A DNA stretch of 44,728 bases from Planctomycetota bacterium (lineage in GTDB: Bacteria; Planctomycetota; Phycisphaerae; Tepidisphaerales; Tepidisphaeraceae). Numbering within the stretch: position 1 is the first letter of the stretch; each line of letters starts with the position of its first letter. The stretch spans positions 1 through 44,728 of the forward strand of contig JBCDKH010000006.1 in assembly GCA_038746835.1 (NCBI GenBank), in the 5' to 3' direction. Shown piece after piece: positions 19,685 to 24,541 of this stretch. A model generated the notes under the pieces. That model had not been told where the DNA came from. It saw nothing but the letters and a program-made list of their open reading frames with translations, and made no database searches. The position numbers and the translations under genes were made by a program.

Positions 19685-20578
19685 ATGTCCGTCCTCCCCA
19701 CCGACACCCTCCGCCTCGGCCTGCCGAGCGGGCCGATGCAGTCGTCGACCTACGAGCTCTTCGACCGCGCCGGCTACCACATCCGCGCTCGCGACCGCAG
19801 CGTCTTCCCGGCGATCGACGACCCGAAGATCTCCTGCGTCCTGTTCCGTGCCCAGGAAATGTCCCGCTACGTCGTCGACGGCCTCGTCGACTGCGGCCTG
19901 ACGGGCCACGACTGGATCGTCGAAAACGGCAACGCCGACGACGTCATCGAAGTCTGCGAACTCACCTACAGCCGCGCGACAAGGCAGCCCGCCCGCTGGG
20001 TGCTTGCCGTCCCGCAGGAGTCGCCGATCCAAAAGCCCGAGGACCTCGCCGGCAAGCTCGTGGCGACCGAGATCGTCAACACCGTCCGCCGCTACTTTGA
20101 AGGCAAGGGCATCACCCCACCCCCCCGCACCGAGTTCTCCTGGGGCACGACCGAGATCAAGGCCCGCATCTGCGACGCCATCGTCGACCTGACCGAGACC
20201 GGCAGTTCCATCCGGGCCAACAACCTCCGCATCATCGACACGCTGCTGACGAGCACGATTCGCTTCATCGCCAGCAAGGAAGCGTGGGCCGTCGACTGGA
20301 AGCGGGAGAAGATGGAGAACATCGCGATGCTCCTCACCGGGGCCATCGCCGCCCGCGGCAAGGTCGGCCTGAAGCTCAACATCGACGGCGACAAGCTCGC
20401 CGAAATCGTCGAGATGCTCCCCGCGCTTAAGAGCCCCACCGTCAACGAAACCCACGACGGCGGCTACGCGGTCGAGGTCATCATCGACGAACACCTCGAG
20501 CGCGACCTGATCCCCCAGCTCAAACGCCACGGGGCGACCGAGATCTTCAGCTACCCGCTGAACAAGGTGATCCCGTAA
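19685..20578 (+). CDS. hisG: ATP phosphoribosyltransferase (long form)
   Basis: The 297-residue enzyme carries the phosphoribosyltransferase domain with TLRLGLPSGPMQSSTYELFD, VLFRAQEMSRYVVDGLVDCG and LTGHDWIVE, then DAIVDLTETGSSIRANNLRI near the PRPP loop. The last 85 residues are the HisG_C regulatory domain seen in long, histidine-inhibited forms. The reaction is ATP + PRPP to phosphoribosyl-ATP, the first step of histidine synthesis. No other his gene is in the window. The last 174 bases, up to TAA, are duplicated at 21413-21586. Every difference inside these 174 bases is silent: seven synonymous sense changes plus TAA against TAG. Confidence 0.92.
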   Translation: MSVLPTDTLRLGLPSGPMQSSTYELFDRAGYHIRARDRSVFPAIDDPKISCVLFRAQEMSRYVVDGLVDCGLTGHDWIVENGNADDVIEVCELTYSRATRQPARWVLAVPQESPIQKPEDLAGKLVATEIVNTVRRYFEGKGITPPPRTEFSWGTTEIKARICDAIVDLTETGSSIRANNLRIIDTLLTSTIRFIASKEAWAVDWKREKMENIAMLLTGAIAARGKVGLKLNIDGDKLAEIVEMLPALKSPTVNETHDGGYAVEVIIDEHLERDLIPQLKRHGATEIFSYPLNKVIP

Positions 20579-20587
20579 ACTCCGACC

Positions 20588-21358
20588 ATGCCCTCGCCCT
20601 TCCCCGGCATGGATCCGTACTTGGAGAACCCGCGGATCTGGCGGGAGGTTCACCACCTGCTCATCGGCAACATCAAGATCCAGTTGTTGCCTTCGCTGCC
20701 CGACCCGTACTACGCGGTTCTCGAAGAAGACCTCTACATCCACGAACCGCCCGCCGAGGATCGACTGTTCGCAAGAGCAGACGATGCCATCATCCTGACC
20801 GACGAGCCGGGCGGCCGATCCGTCGAGACGACGGCGGTGTCGTCCAAGGCGTCGCTGACGATGCGCATTCCAGTCATCGACCCCGAACTGCCGGAACGCC
20901 TTCAGAACATTGAAATCCGCACGGCCAGCAACGACCGCGTTATCACGGTGATCGAACTGGTGAGCCGCACCAACAAGCTCGGCGGCCGGCGGCAGTTCAT
21001 CGAAAAGCGACTCAACCTCCTTTCGGCGGGCGTCAACCTGCTTCAGATCGATCTTCTCCGCGTCGGCGAAACCCTATTGCCGCAGGAGTCGCCGCCGCAC
21101 GACTACAGCGCGATGTTGACGCGAGGCTACGAACCGACCGCCGACGTCTGGATGTGGACGCTGCGTGACAAGCTGCCGATTCTGCCGGTGCCGTTGGCGA
21201 ACGACGACCCGGACATCGTCCTCGACCTGCGGGCGGCCCTGGACATCACCTACGACGCCAGCCGCTACAGCCCGCGCATCTACCGCCACGCCCCTGACCC
21301 GCCGCTGGCGGAGGACCTCGTCGACTGGGCCGATGCGCTCGTGCCATCGGCGAGTTGA
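20588..21358 (+). CDS. DUF4058 family protein
   Basis: The 256-residue protein starts 10 bases after the hisG stop. N-terminal PSPFPGMDPYLENPRIWREV is the family hallmark. The core has ITVIELVSRTNKLGGRRQFI, then LLQIDLLRVGETL. The E-L-V-S-x-T-N-K and IDLLR pattern resembles restriction-like PD-(D/E)XK folds, as in Uma2-type proteins, which is inference. DUF4058 occurs mostly in planctomycetes and cyanobacteria and has no known function. It is bracketed by intact hisG and a duplicate of the hisG tail, so it looks inserted. Confidence 0.8.
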   Translation: MPSPFPGMDPYLENPRIWREVHHLLIGNIKIQLLPSLPDPYYAVLEEDLYIHEPPAEDRLFARADDAIILTDEPGGRSVETTAVSSKASLTMRIPVIDPELPERLQNIEIRTASNDRVITVIELVSRTNKLGGRRQFIEKRLNLLSAGVNLLQIDLLRVGETLLPQESPPHDYSAMLTRGYEPTADVWMWTLRDKLPILPVPLANDDPDIVLDLRAALDITYDASRYSPRIYRHAPDPPLAEDLVDWADALVPSAS

Positions 21359-21412
21359 GCCGGCGGCTTGGTGGATGGCCATTTACTCAGGCGGATCGGA
21401 ATCTGCGCCGCC

Positions 21413-21586
21413 ATTGTCGAGATGCTCCCCGCCCTTAAGAGCCCCACCGTCAACGAAACCCACGACGGCGGCTACGCGGTCGAGGTCATCATCGACGAAC
21501 ACCTGGAGCGAGACCTGATCCCGCAACTCAAACGCCATGGGGCGACCGAGATCTTCAGCTACCCGCTGAACAAGGTGATCCCGTAG
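21413..21586 (+). pseudogene. Duplicate of the hisG 3' end
   Basis: These 174 bases encode the same final 57 residues as hisG 20405-20578 (IVEMLPALKSPTVNETHDGG through SYPLNKVIP) and differ at eight bases. The differences are ATC/ATT, GCG/GCC, CTC/CTG, CGC/CGA, CCC/CCG, CAG/CAA, CAC/CAT and TAA/TAG, all silent. The frame is open back to a TTG at 21368, but the head reads VDGHLLRRIGICAA, unlike hisG. Most likely it is the orphan tail left after a DUF4058 segment arrived. Confidence 0.85.
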
Positions 21587-21610: not shown

Positions 21611-21735
21611 CTGTCATTCCGAGCGGAGTGAAACGGAGTCGAGGAACCTCGGGCGCTTCAGCTGATCGAGAGGCCGGCAACCATTCGCGATCGCCCCGGT
21701 CACGCGAGGTCCCTCGGCTGCGCTCGGGATGACGG
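21611..21735. repeat. Palindromic element B1
   Basis: The left arm begins GTCATTCCGAGCGGAGTGAA (21613) and extends to about 21651 (GAGGAACCTCG). The right arm begins at 21705 (CGAGGTCCCTCGG) and ends GGGATGACGG. The ends are roughly inverted and make a long imperfect hairpin. A related copy is at 32376-32470. It lies between the hisG-tail copy and the Roco gene. Confidence 0.75.
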
Positions 21736-21772: not shown

Positions 21773-24541
21773 TCACTCCGCCTTTTCGACGTCCTTCTCG
21801 ATCGAGAAGTCGGGGAAGAGCACCTTTCCGAGTTGTCCGATCGTGCCCACGATGTTGCCGGTGAAATCCTTCGCCCATTTCGAGGCGTCGAGCAGACCCT
21901 TGGCGGAAACGGAGTACCAGCGACGGCTCGGCTCTTGCTTCGTCGCATGTTTGACGACCTTTTCGTAGAGATCGGTCGCCTCCTCCTGCTCGTCCTCGGA
22001 CAAGTAGGTGAGCAGCGACTTCACATCCTTGTCCAACTGTTCCAGCAGGTCTTTCCGCTCGCCAGCCTGCTGTTGCTGGATCATGTTCGTGCAGTTTTCG
22101 AGGCTGTGCCCGACTTGCGAGTTGATCACGTCACCTGTCTTGACTGGTTGAAAGTCTCTCATCTTGTCTCCTTTCACGAGGTCACCCATCACGGTCACGT
22201 TCATCGCCTGACGACGCTCCTCTTCGCGTTCGGCCATCGCAGTACCGCGAATGCACCCGAGCGCCTCGGCGATGTCGACTTCGATCAGGTCGCTCTGCTT
22301 GGCATCCGCTGGGAAAAGGTGCTTTCGAATCCCTCTGTCTTCAAGTGTGCGGAGAAACTTGTAGCTAAGAAACGGTGCTTCTGGATGTTCCGGCACCGGG
22401 ATCAACTCTTCGACCGCGTCGAGCCCCGTGACGGCCTCATGGAGCTCCTCGAACTTGAACCGCACGCGGTCGAGGGCGTCGCGTCGCTGACTTCCACGAC
22501 CACCGACAACGGAAATTTCGACCTTCCGAAGTCGCTTGTCCCCAATGACGCGGACGCGGCAGTCGCCGATCTCCAGCACACACCCTTTCCGCCAGGGCGG
22601 CGGCGCTTTGCTGTGCAGGTTGTGCGTTCGGGCGATAAAGGTCGGAATGAGCCCGGGCGGAAGGACGGGGTAGCGGTACAAGAACGGCAGCGAGTCGCCC
22701 GGCCAATCCATCTTCGGCTCTCGGTCTTCCAGGAGCAGTGGGATGAACATCTTGCCTTCCCCGGTGTCATAGAGCTGCGAAAAGCGTCGCATCACCTTCT
22801 CGACGAGGCGGTGACTCCCGACCGGGTGATTCAGTTCCTTACTGATACGAGCAAAGTCGGCTTCGCGGACGAGTCCCCCGCGCTTCTTGAGCGTCTCGTC
22901 ACCCAGAACTCGATAGACAGCCTCGGTCACCCACTCCGGATTGAGAATCGCCGTCTGACGGAGCGTCGGATCGTCGTCTTCCTCGTTGTCTGGAAAGTAG
23001 CGGACCGTTCCTAGCTTGTCCCACGTGTTGAGGAGTCCGGTTTGCAGTCTGCTGTTCGTCACGTCGGTGTCGCCGCAGAGCTGCGTGTATTCCTCGAGGG
23101 TCAGGGTTGGACGATCCAGTTCCTCCAGCTTCGCCTTGAGCTTCATCACGTCCGGGTGCATTTCCTGTCTGGCGTCGGGCAGCTTCCACACCTCGGCCAA
23201 AAGGGTCTTGCGTAGCTCGTCGATCCCGAAACCGGCACCTTTGCCCTTGTTGGGCCCGTCCTTAGCGTCCTGGCATTGCGTGCGAATGAACCCACGGAGC
23301 ATCGGGTGAAACTTGCGGATCAGCTCGTCCTCGCTCGGCCCGCCGGTGGGGTTCTCGTCGTGCTTGTTGATGACAATCCAGACGGGTGAACCATCGCCGA
23401 ACGTTTTTGCCGTTTCCAGCCACTCCTCGAGGTCCGCATCCACACGCGTGTCTTTCCGGGCCGTCGTAACCAGGACATACACGGCCCCCTTCGTCAAGAA
23501 AAAGCGGTGCGTCGCCTTGTAGATTTCCTGTCCGCCGAAATCCCAGAGGTTAAGGCGGAACGGCTCACCATCGTCCGCCAACTCGCCGTCCCGGGTCGTC
23601 AGCGGCAGCACCTCCTGCGTGATGCCGTCGGTTTGCTCGAAGTTGGGCGTCGGCGTTCCATGTTTGAGGGCATGGATGAGGCTCGACTTGCCGGACTCCG
23701 GCTGACCGAGGAAGAGCACTTTGGCTTCGTTGAGCGGCTGGACTTCACCCCGAGACCGAGCTTCTTGTAACGACAGCGCGTAAGCGATGATTTCGGATGG
23801 CGGTGCGGCTTCCTTACGTTTGAGAACAATTTCCATCCATGTCGGTCCGAGCACTTCCGTGGGCAGAGAAAACGCAGGGTTTGCGTGTACACAGAACTCC
23901 GCTAGTCGCTTGAGAGTTCGTAACCCTTCGGGCAGAGACGTGAGATTGTTGTTCTCGAGGACCAGCTCCCGCAACGCCTTGAGCTGCCCAATCTCAGTCG
24001 GCAGCGACGTGAGCTGGTTGCCGTTGAGGTACAGCTTCTCCAACGACTTGAGCTGCCCAATCTCAGACGGCAGCGACGTGAGCTGATTTTCGCTGACAGC
24101 CAGCCCGACCATCGCCGTGAGCTGCCCAATCTCCGACGGCAGCGACGTAAGCTGGTTGATGTGGAGATACAGCTTATCCAACGCCTTGAGCCGCCCAATC
24201 TCCGACGGCAGCGACTTGAGCTGGTTGTTTCCGAGGTTTAGCTCGTGCAACGCCGCGAGCTGCCCAATCTCAGACGGCAGTGAGACCAGCTGGTTGCTTT
24301 GGAGGTTCAGTTCCTCCAATGCCTTGAGCTGCCCAATCTCCGATGGCAGCGACGTGAGCTCGTTCGAGTAAATTACGAGCACCTGCAACGCCGTAAGCTG
24401 CCAAATCTCCGGCGGCAGCGACGTCAAACCAAGACCACCGAGATTCAGCTCGCGCGATCGCTTCGCGGCTGCTTTGCGAATGCGGGCCTTGGCTTCTTCA
24501 TATCCGGTTCGTCCCTCACCCTTGCTCATGGTCGGCGGCAA
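21773..24541 (-). CDS. Roco protein (LRR-Roc-COR GTPase)
   Basis: The 922-residue protein has eight 23-residue leucine-rich repeats (about residues 39-222, consensus LTSLPSEIGQLKALEELNL). The Roc GTPase has P-loop GQPESGKSS (279-287), a DFGGQ switch (334-338) and NKHD (392-395). The COR region runs to about 760. The tail (780-922) starts with a GD-rich turn region (MGDLVKGDKMRDFQ, KTGDVINSQVGHS), then a charged helical part, then a hydrophobic end (DFTGNIVGTIGQLGKVLF). Such tails are common in bacterial NLR-, TIR- and Roco-type conflict proteins, though their activity is unknown. The start is ATG 24541; ATG 24529 is an alternative. A Roco-like immune or signalling role is inferred from domain order. 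Confidence 0.85.
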   Translation of the reverse strand: MPPTMSKGEGRTGYEEAKARIRKAAAKRSRELNLGGLGLTSLPPEIWQLTALQVLVIYSNELTSLPSEIGQLKALEELNLQSNQLVSLPSEIGQLAALHELNLGNNQLKSLPSEIGRLKALDKLYLHINQLTSLPSEIGQLTAMVGLAVSENQLTSLPSEIGQLKSLEKLYLNGNQLTSLPTEIGQLKALRELVLENNNLTSLPEGLRTLKRLAEFCVHANPAFSLPTEVLGPTWMEIVLKRKEAAPPSEIIAYALSLQEARSRGEVQPLNEAKVLFLGQPESGKSSLIHALKHGTPTPNFEQTDGITQEVLPLTTRDGELADDGEPFRLNLWDFGGQEIYKATHRFFLTKGAVYVLVTTARKDTRVDADLEEWLETAKTFGDGSPVWIVINKHDENPTGGPSEDELIRKFHPMLRGFIRTQCQDAKDGPNKGKGAGFGIDELRKTLLAEVWKLPDARQEMHPDVMKLKAKLEELDRPTLTLEEYTQLCGDTDVTNSRLQTGLLNTWDKLGTVRYFPDNEEDDDPTLRQTAILNPEWVTEAVYRVLGDETLKKRGGLVREADFARISKELNHPVGSHRLVEKVMRRFSQLYDTGEGKMFIPLLLEDREPKMDWPGDSLPFLYRYPVLPPGLIPTFIARTHNLHSKAPPPWRKGCVLEIGDCRVRVIGDKRLRKVEISVVGGRGSQRRDALDRVRFKFEELHEAVTGLDAVEELIPVPEHPEAPFLSYKFLRTLEDRGIRKHLFPADAKQSDLIEVDIAEALGCIRGTAMAEREEERRQAMNVTVMGDLVKGDKMRDFQPVKTGDVINSQVGHSLENCTNMIQQQQAGERKDLLEQLDKDVKSLLTYLSEDEQEEATDLYEKVVKHATKQEPSRRWYSVSAKGLLDASKWAKDFTGNIVGTIGQLGKVLFPDFSIEKDVEKAE
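23876..24427 (-). repeat. Tandem 69-base leucine-rich-repeat units
   Basis: Eight copies of a 69-base unit encode the 23-residue repeats of the Roco protein. Unit 1 (residue 39) begins at 24427 and the last ends at 23876. The central copies share near-identical DNA (plus-strand GAGCTGCCCAATCTCAGACG and relatives), suggesting recent expansion or gene conversion. Confidence 0.8.

Follow-up and report, generated by a model that had tools for sequence, protein, structure and literature searches.

A planctomycete Roco protein with a putative C-terminal module found on unrelated proteins in or near defence genes

The Roco locus

The window analysed here, a stretch of 44,728 nucleotides, is contig 6 of a planctomycete assembly of 3.85 Mb (335 contigs, 96.6% complete); relatives and proteins of the PEP-CTERM type point to this phylum. 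It carries on the minus strand an intact open reading frame of 922 codons counted from a TTG (21773-24541), for which the ATG at codon 5 (24529) is a likelier start than the TTG at 24541. In the product, Roc is directly followed by COR-A and COR-B in the Pfam order that defines the Roco family (E-values: LRR_8 5e-28, Roc 6e-22, COR-A 5e-24, COR-B 8e-18; Table 1), and the GTP-binding motifs GQPESGKS (P-loop), DFGGQ and NKHD are all intact in the translation. After COR-B come a G/D/N-rich stretch and then helices, which, together with the Pfam matches, bears out the domain order given in the preliminary description of this DNA. The leucine-rich repeats form eight units of 23 residues (69 nt), up to 87% identical to each other; within this one protein, units 1-7 vary mostly at the exposed positions 5, 6, 8, 10 and 11. 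The gene is the only Roco in the genome, where genome-wide profile searches gave a single match each for COR-A and COR-B; a second match to Roc is IF-2, hence not a second Roco. Its GC content (59.2%; GC3 75%) lies below that of the neighbouring genes measured (63-70%; GC3 80-93%), which hints mildly at a foreign origin.

The neighbours, namely hisG, yebC, a heptosyltransferase, a GH32 gene, an inositol phosphatase, glycosyltransferases and others, are housekeeping genes. Among the window genes scanned there is neither a defence gene nor an RM gene, the Roco has no effector gene at its side, and the window as such does not form a defence island. Relatives of the same family have hisG and yebC as neighbours, about 11 bp apart in one genome (G470) and about 2.8 kb apart in five; in the three of the latter examined by eye, the gap is occupied by a TPR lipoprotein-like gene. 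The corresponding gap of the window spans 6.6 kb and holds the DUF4058 gene, the second hisG 3' end, the palindrome, the Roco and two other ORFs. The yebC genes were located with an approximate YebC query, which matched the window copy at 68%. Since the gap is short in the relatives and long in the window, the pocket is lineage-specific. The DUF4058 gene looks as if it had been inserted at the 3' end of hisG together with a replacement end.

The half-sites of the palindromic element occur 149 times genome-wide (0 for the control), often as opposite-orientation pairs some 70-110 bp apart, and the element is a dispersed REP/MITE-like repeat; being spread over the whole genome, it says little about the Roco locus. 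The accessory character that had been ascribed to the region finds support in the hisG-yebC pocket, but not in the housekeeping flanks or the palindromes. Incidentally, a DUF4058-like gene (L027, 1-840; recognised by eye from its start, FPGMDPWLEHP) lies beside a Roco-TIR gene in the planctomycete G081. As DUF4058 occurs elsewhere too, this recurrence may be due to chance.

Table 1. Features of the Roco locus (positions in the window)
Feature	Position	Strand	Remarks
DUF4058 gene between hisG and second hisG 3' end	20588..21358	+	
Second copy of hisG 3' end, 180 nt	21406..21585	+	95% identical to 20398-20577; Pfam HisG_C
Dispersed palindromic repeat element	21613..21733		GTCATYCCGAGCG half-sites
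Roco gene (LRR-Roc-COR-tail)	21776..24529	-	ATG start 24529; stop codon 21773-21775; ORF from TTG 24541
C-terminal tail module, residues ~781-922	21776..22201	-	turn segment rich in G/D/N; helices; K-x-E-P motif; moderate hydrophobicity of the last helix
COR-B domain, residues 617-738	22328..22693	-	
COR-A domain, residues 466-604	22730..23146	-	
Roc GTPase domain, residues 274-395	23357..23722	-	G1/G3/G4 motifs intact
LRR array, residues 49-232	23846..24397	-	eight 69-nt units

The tail and its relatives

The tail matches no family in Pfam or NCBIfam. PHROG 16834 was considered as its family and set aside, the match being too weak, and a profile search of the PDB gave coiled-coil, designed-protein and other scattered matches judged to be chance. 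No relative was found in phage records by tblastn, nor, in IMG/VR, any relative of the Roco- or plasmid-type tails or of the L016 protein (see below). Within the genome (assembly 96.6% complete), single-sequence and profile searches found no second copy of the tail, and a scan of the contigs with a two-sequence alignment returned one locus only.

Relatives do exist on proteins other than Rocos. With a tail profile built from non-Roco sequences only, the window tail reaches 38.1-40.5 bits. None of its shuffled copies (2,000 with local and 2,000 with full shuffling) exceeds 18.7 bits, so that the match is more than chance, and the Roco minus its tail scores below zero with the same profile. The tail matches that of another planctomycete Roco (L004, E 2e-8) and, in a search of 7.3 Gb, a Nitrosomonas plasmid protein of 480 residues (L007, E 3e-5), whose gene lies beside DUF3644 and a restriction-type gene cluster. 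A nearly identical protein is encoded in Variovorax (L022, 1946-3403, versus L007, 4918-6360), and the 97% identity of the two tails indicates recent transfer. From the tail of L004 the search leads to L008, a STAND-like AAA protein (Pfam AAA_14; E 3e-4), and a tail-type C-terminus also ends L016, a PDC-M36A-like protein (E 9e-28 to PDC-M36A). Three further candidates, L005, L006 and L010, were rejected as chance matches (stops, a coiled coil and an SMC protein).

Along the same line, the C-terminus of the PADLOC candidate PDC-M14B matches the tails of the window (1e-3), L004 (7e-4), L007 (9e-8) and L008 (3e-7), as well as L009, L016, L017, L034 and L035; control Rocos with other C-termini (L023, L025, L032, L033) gave no such match. 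A literature search turned up no description of PDC-M14. Four of these proteins (L009, L017, L034, L035) bear the tail on a winged helix. With hhalign, Roco-type and winged-helix tails gave no significant match, and a search for plasmid relatives of the winged-helix protein yielded none; this group is the weakest link, which leans mainly on PDC-M14B. PDC-M14B shares only the tail with the winged-helix proteins, in which winged helix and tail are separate modules.

Several of the relatives sit in or near defence genes. In two contigs of a viral collection, the winged-helix/tail gene (L034, 3318-3989; L035, 4965-5642) lies between hsdM-like and hsdS-like genes in type I restriction operons, hsdM, hsdS and hsdR having been recognised by eye from the translations; the tail genes of L017 and L009 adjoin hsdS-like genes. 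Going upstream from the L004 gene on the same strand, one meets an LRR frame and, beyond it, a TIR-NB-ARC-TPR gene; the L008 gene is opposite a CHAT-AAA-TPR gene near IS66 transposases. Altogether, at least five architectures bear the tail or a relative of it: the Roco, the STAND-like ATPase, the PDC-M36A-like protein, the winged-helix protein of type I RM operons and the plasmid protein of an RM island. Where the N-terminus is recognisable, these are sensors or switches, with no catalytic effector domain.

Judged by these sequence matches, the tail is a shared module and not a Roco-specific one. The opposite outcome, a tail confined to Rocos and unconnected with conflict systems, had been named beforehand as what would speak against the preliminary description; instead, the tail was found on non-Roco proteins in or near defence loci. 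The likeness to tails of conflict proteins that had been proposed holds for AAA/STAND-like, PDC-M36A-like, winged-helix and plasmid RM-island proteins, but no relative was found on a TIR, caspase or trypsin protein. The earlier interpretation may therefore be regarded as partly supported.

Predicted shape of the tail

AlphaFold2, given two sequences, models the window tail poorly (pLDDT 51), drawing helices after the GD segment. The tail of the distant relative L035 is modelled well (pLDDT 86, pTM 0.80), with three short strands from the GD-rich segment followed by four helices and a K-P-E-P loop in the middle. A hand alignment on K-x-E-P would give the window tail these four helices as well. 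Foldseek found no match to the L035 tail at E<=0.001; its fold neighbours are four-helix proteins of a generic kind (best Z 7.7), among them the small soluble Avd and S23 families, and a middling Z for helical bundles may reflect a common arrangement only. Amphipathic helices ending in a hydrophobic stretch had been described for the tail: helices are there, but the stretch is modest, with a best 19-residue Kyte-Doolittle mean of 0.86 versus 1.1-2.0 in the relatives, and after it the protein closes with the charged residues FSIEKDVEKAE.

The Roco C-terminus as a variable slot

COR-B was detected in 9 of the 294 genomes of a phylum sample and COR-A in 17 of the 248 of a class sample, a patchy distribution. 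In the phylum sample the Roco C-termini carry TIR (L023, L024, L027 and L032, by Pfam), an HTH (L025) or, after a similar GD linker, TM helices (L033); the tail module is on the window Roco and L004, the remaining C-termini being short or other. By eye, the other Rocos of the class end in TIR-like domains (3), TM helices (2), longer regions with hydrophobic helices (5), winged-helix-like domains (2), short (2) or other (1) C-termini, or a frame with stops (1). One genome (G048) carries two Rocos, one with a GD linker and TM helices, the other with the window-type tail. Five class Rocos (L049, L051, L052, L054, L055) have in common another long C-terminal domain, which combines a WW-helix with a helical stretch of strong hydrophobicity, and the L052 sequence KEWWASTIKGIQRVARWVKPVATLLPLLG resembles the final helices of the window tail. 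In Rocos the C-terminus is a variable slot, which matches the published description of AP-GTPase-COR conflict proteins, as far as its text goes (PMC8195603).

Possible function

The occurrence of the tail on unrelated proteins in or near defence genes suggests that the Roco is an immune receptor with a little-known output domain, and an anti-phage role is presumed for it; among the papers found for Roco and phage defence, none names Roco. The reading tentatively favoured here, with somewhat less than even confidence, is that of a stand-alone NLR-like receptor whose tail is a non-catalytic output, most likely one that disturbs membranes. The diversified concave face of the LRRs would bind a putative invader or stress molecule; binding would shift the Roc-COR GTP switch between closed-dimer and open forms; and the switch would free the C-terminal module, perhaps through a CtRoco-like change that exposes the tail. 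The G/D-rich beta-turn segment and the four-helix unit would then self-assemble into the non-catalytic output, the last hydrophobic helix most likely disturbing a membrane, with growth stop or killing of the infected cell as the presumed result. This output is favoured because the tail-bearing proteins are sensors or switches without a catalytic effector domain, which leaves the tail as the candidate output, and because TM helices take the same slot. The intact GTPase motifs, the LRR variation at exposed positions, the patchy presence of the gene and the swapping of Roco C-termini also speak for this reading. Against it stand the weakly hydrophobic last helix of the window tail, the poor model of that tail, the compact and perhaps soluble four-helix unit of L035, the weak hhalign link to the winged-helix tails, and flanks that are not defence genes.

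An adaptor or oligomer role of the tail is nearly as likely as a membrane-active output. Here the receptor is the same, and the tail, like an EAD or a Death-like domain, would multimerise the Roco or recruit an effector and not act on membranes, which is a possible, if still doubtful, account. The confidently modelled beta-turn and four helices of L035 have small soluble four-helix proteins as loose fold neighbours, and this compact unit could simply be a soluble oligomerisation domain; moreover, a pore would be hard to reconcile with the DNA-binding winged-helix proteins that bear the tail, and EADs are among the named occupants of the Roco C-terminal position (PMC8195603). Yet EADs come in several copies with one on an effector, against the single tail copy found here, no effector gene stands beside the Roco in the window, and in L033 a similar GD linker is followed by TM helices in this position. 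The tails of L009, L017, L034 and L035, which sit on winged-helix proteins embedded among type I RM genes or adjoining them, would also fit a regulatory domain that senses nucleic acid or a partner protein, or acts on either, for instance by restraining an adjacent restriction-type system. Such a role is very unlikely for the window tail, for no RM gene occurs among the window genes scanned, and winged helix and tail are separate modules, of which PDC-M14B has only the tail in common.

A non-defence role, in which the Roco would serve signalling or scaffolding under GTP control and its tail would be a generic dimerisation end, would agree with the housekeeping flanks and the modest hydrophobicity of the window tail, the more so as prokaryotic Roco physiology has been called largely unknown (PMC6337361). 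It is nevertheless improbable in view of the patchy presence (17/248 in the class), the swapping of immune-type domains at the same C-terminal position, the lineage-specific insert in which the Roco sits, and the relatives of the tail, some within RM operons and others beside TIR-NB-ARC or CHAT-STAND genes. Carried to its full extent, the receptor reading would make the tail a new output domain of beta-turn and four helices on at least five unrelated architectures, and the tail-bearing Rocos GTP-switched NLR-like receptors that execute arrest or death; as a whole this appears rather unlikely.

Bacterial Roco proteins are the simplest relatives of LRRK2, the human Parkinson's protein. The shared tail offers a concrete candidate output for the GTP switch, would give the link between Roco proteins and bacterial immunity a basis in sequence that goes beyond analogy, and marks a domain without a name in current family libraries.

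Comparison with known systems

Plant and animal NLRs and four-helix cell-death domains (CC/RPW8, HET-S, MLKL) offer the pattern of a repeat sensor, an NTPase switch and a helical output module. The likeness to the window Roco is an analogy of working principle only, and the putative output of the Roco is C-terminal. As for membrane-active four-helix effectors (HeLo/CC-like), which are bundles with an exposable hydrophobic helix, four helices are seen in the L035 model, whereas the window tail has a poor model and modest hydrophobicity.

PDC-M14B (PDLC04448/04449/04451/04453) matches, with its C-terminal ~100 residues, the window tail and nearly all its relatives. Unlike the window Roco, it is without Roc, COR and LRR; the matches start at profile position 108 or later, the N-terminal part being unmatched, so that with the window only the C-terminal part is alike, and weakly (E 1e-3).

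The LRR-Roc-COR-A-COR-B part of CtRoco from Chlorobaculum tepidum (PDB 6hlu, 8r4b) aligns with residues 50-739 of the window protein (6hlu, 5e-83). GTP turns CtRoco from a closed dimer into an open monomer, and its last ~150 residues are structurally unresolved (PMC11052575). With the tail profile, a PDB search at E<=5 returned none of the CtRoco chains, and the ends of the two proteins are therefore not detectably related.

The closest class is that of the prokaryotic LRR-AP-GTPase-COR proteins, predicted to counter invaders, with rapidly evolving N-terminal LRRs and, at the C-terminus, an effector slot that varies (Kaur 2021, PMC8195603). In the LRRs of the window protein, variation within the first seven repeats falls on exposed positions. 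The window Roco resembles this class, as there described, in its LRR array, Roc GTPase, COR, variable C-terminal output and patchy distribution, and the survey of phylum and class Rocos likewise found a variable domain in the effector position. The slot has at least 24 occupants, of which the text names TIR, DRHyd, caspase, trypsin, FGS, GT4 and EADs (PMC8195603); the window tail is absent from those named in the main text, where some of the at least 24 are not named. EADs, in the same account, occur in several copies per genome with one on an effector (PMC8195603), and this genome has one tail copy. To sum up, the LRR-Roc-COR class with its variable effector slot is already published as a prediction, and, relative to the occupants named in that text (PMC8195603), the putative shared tail is the new element.
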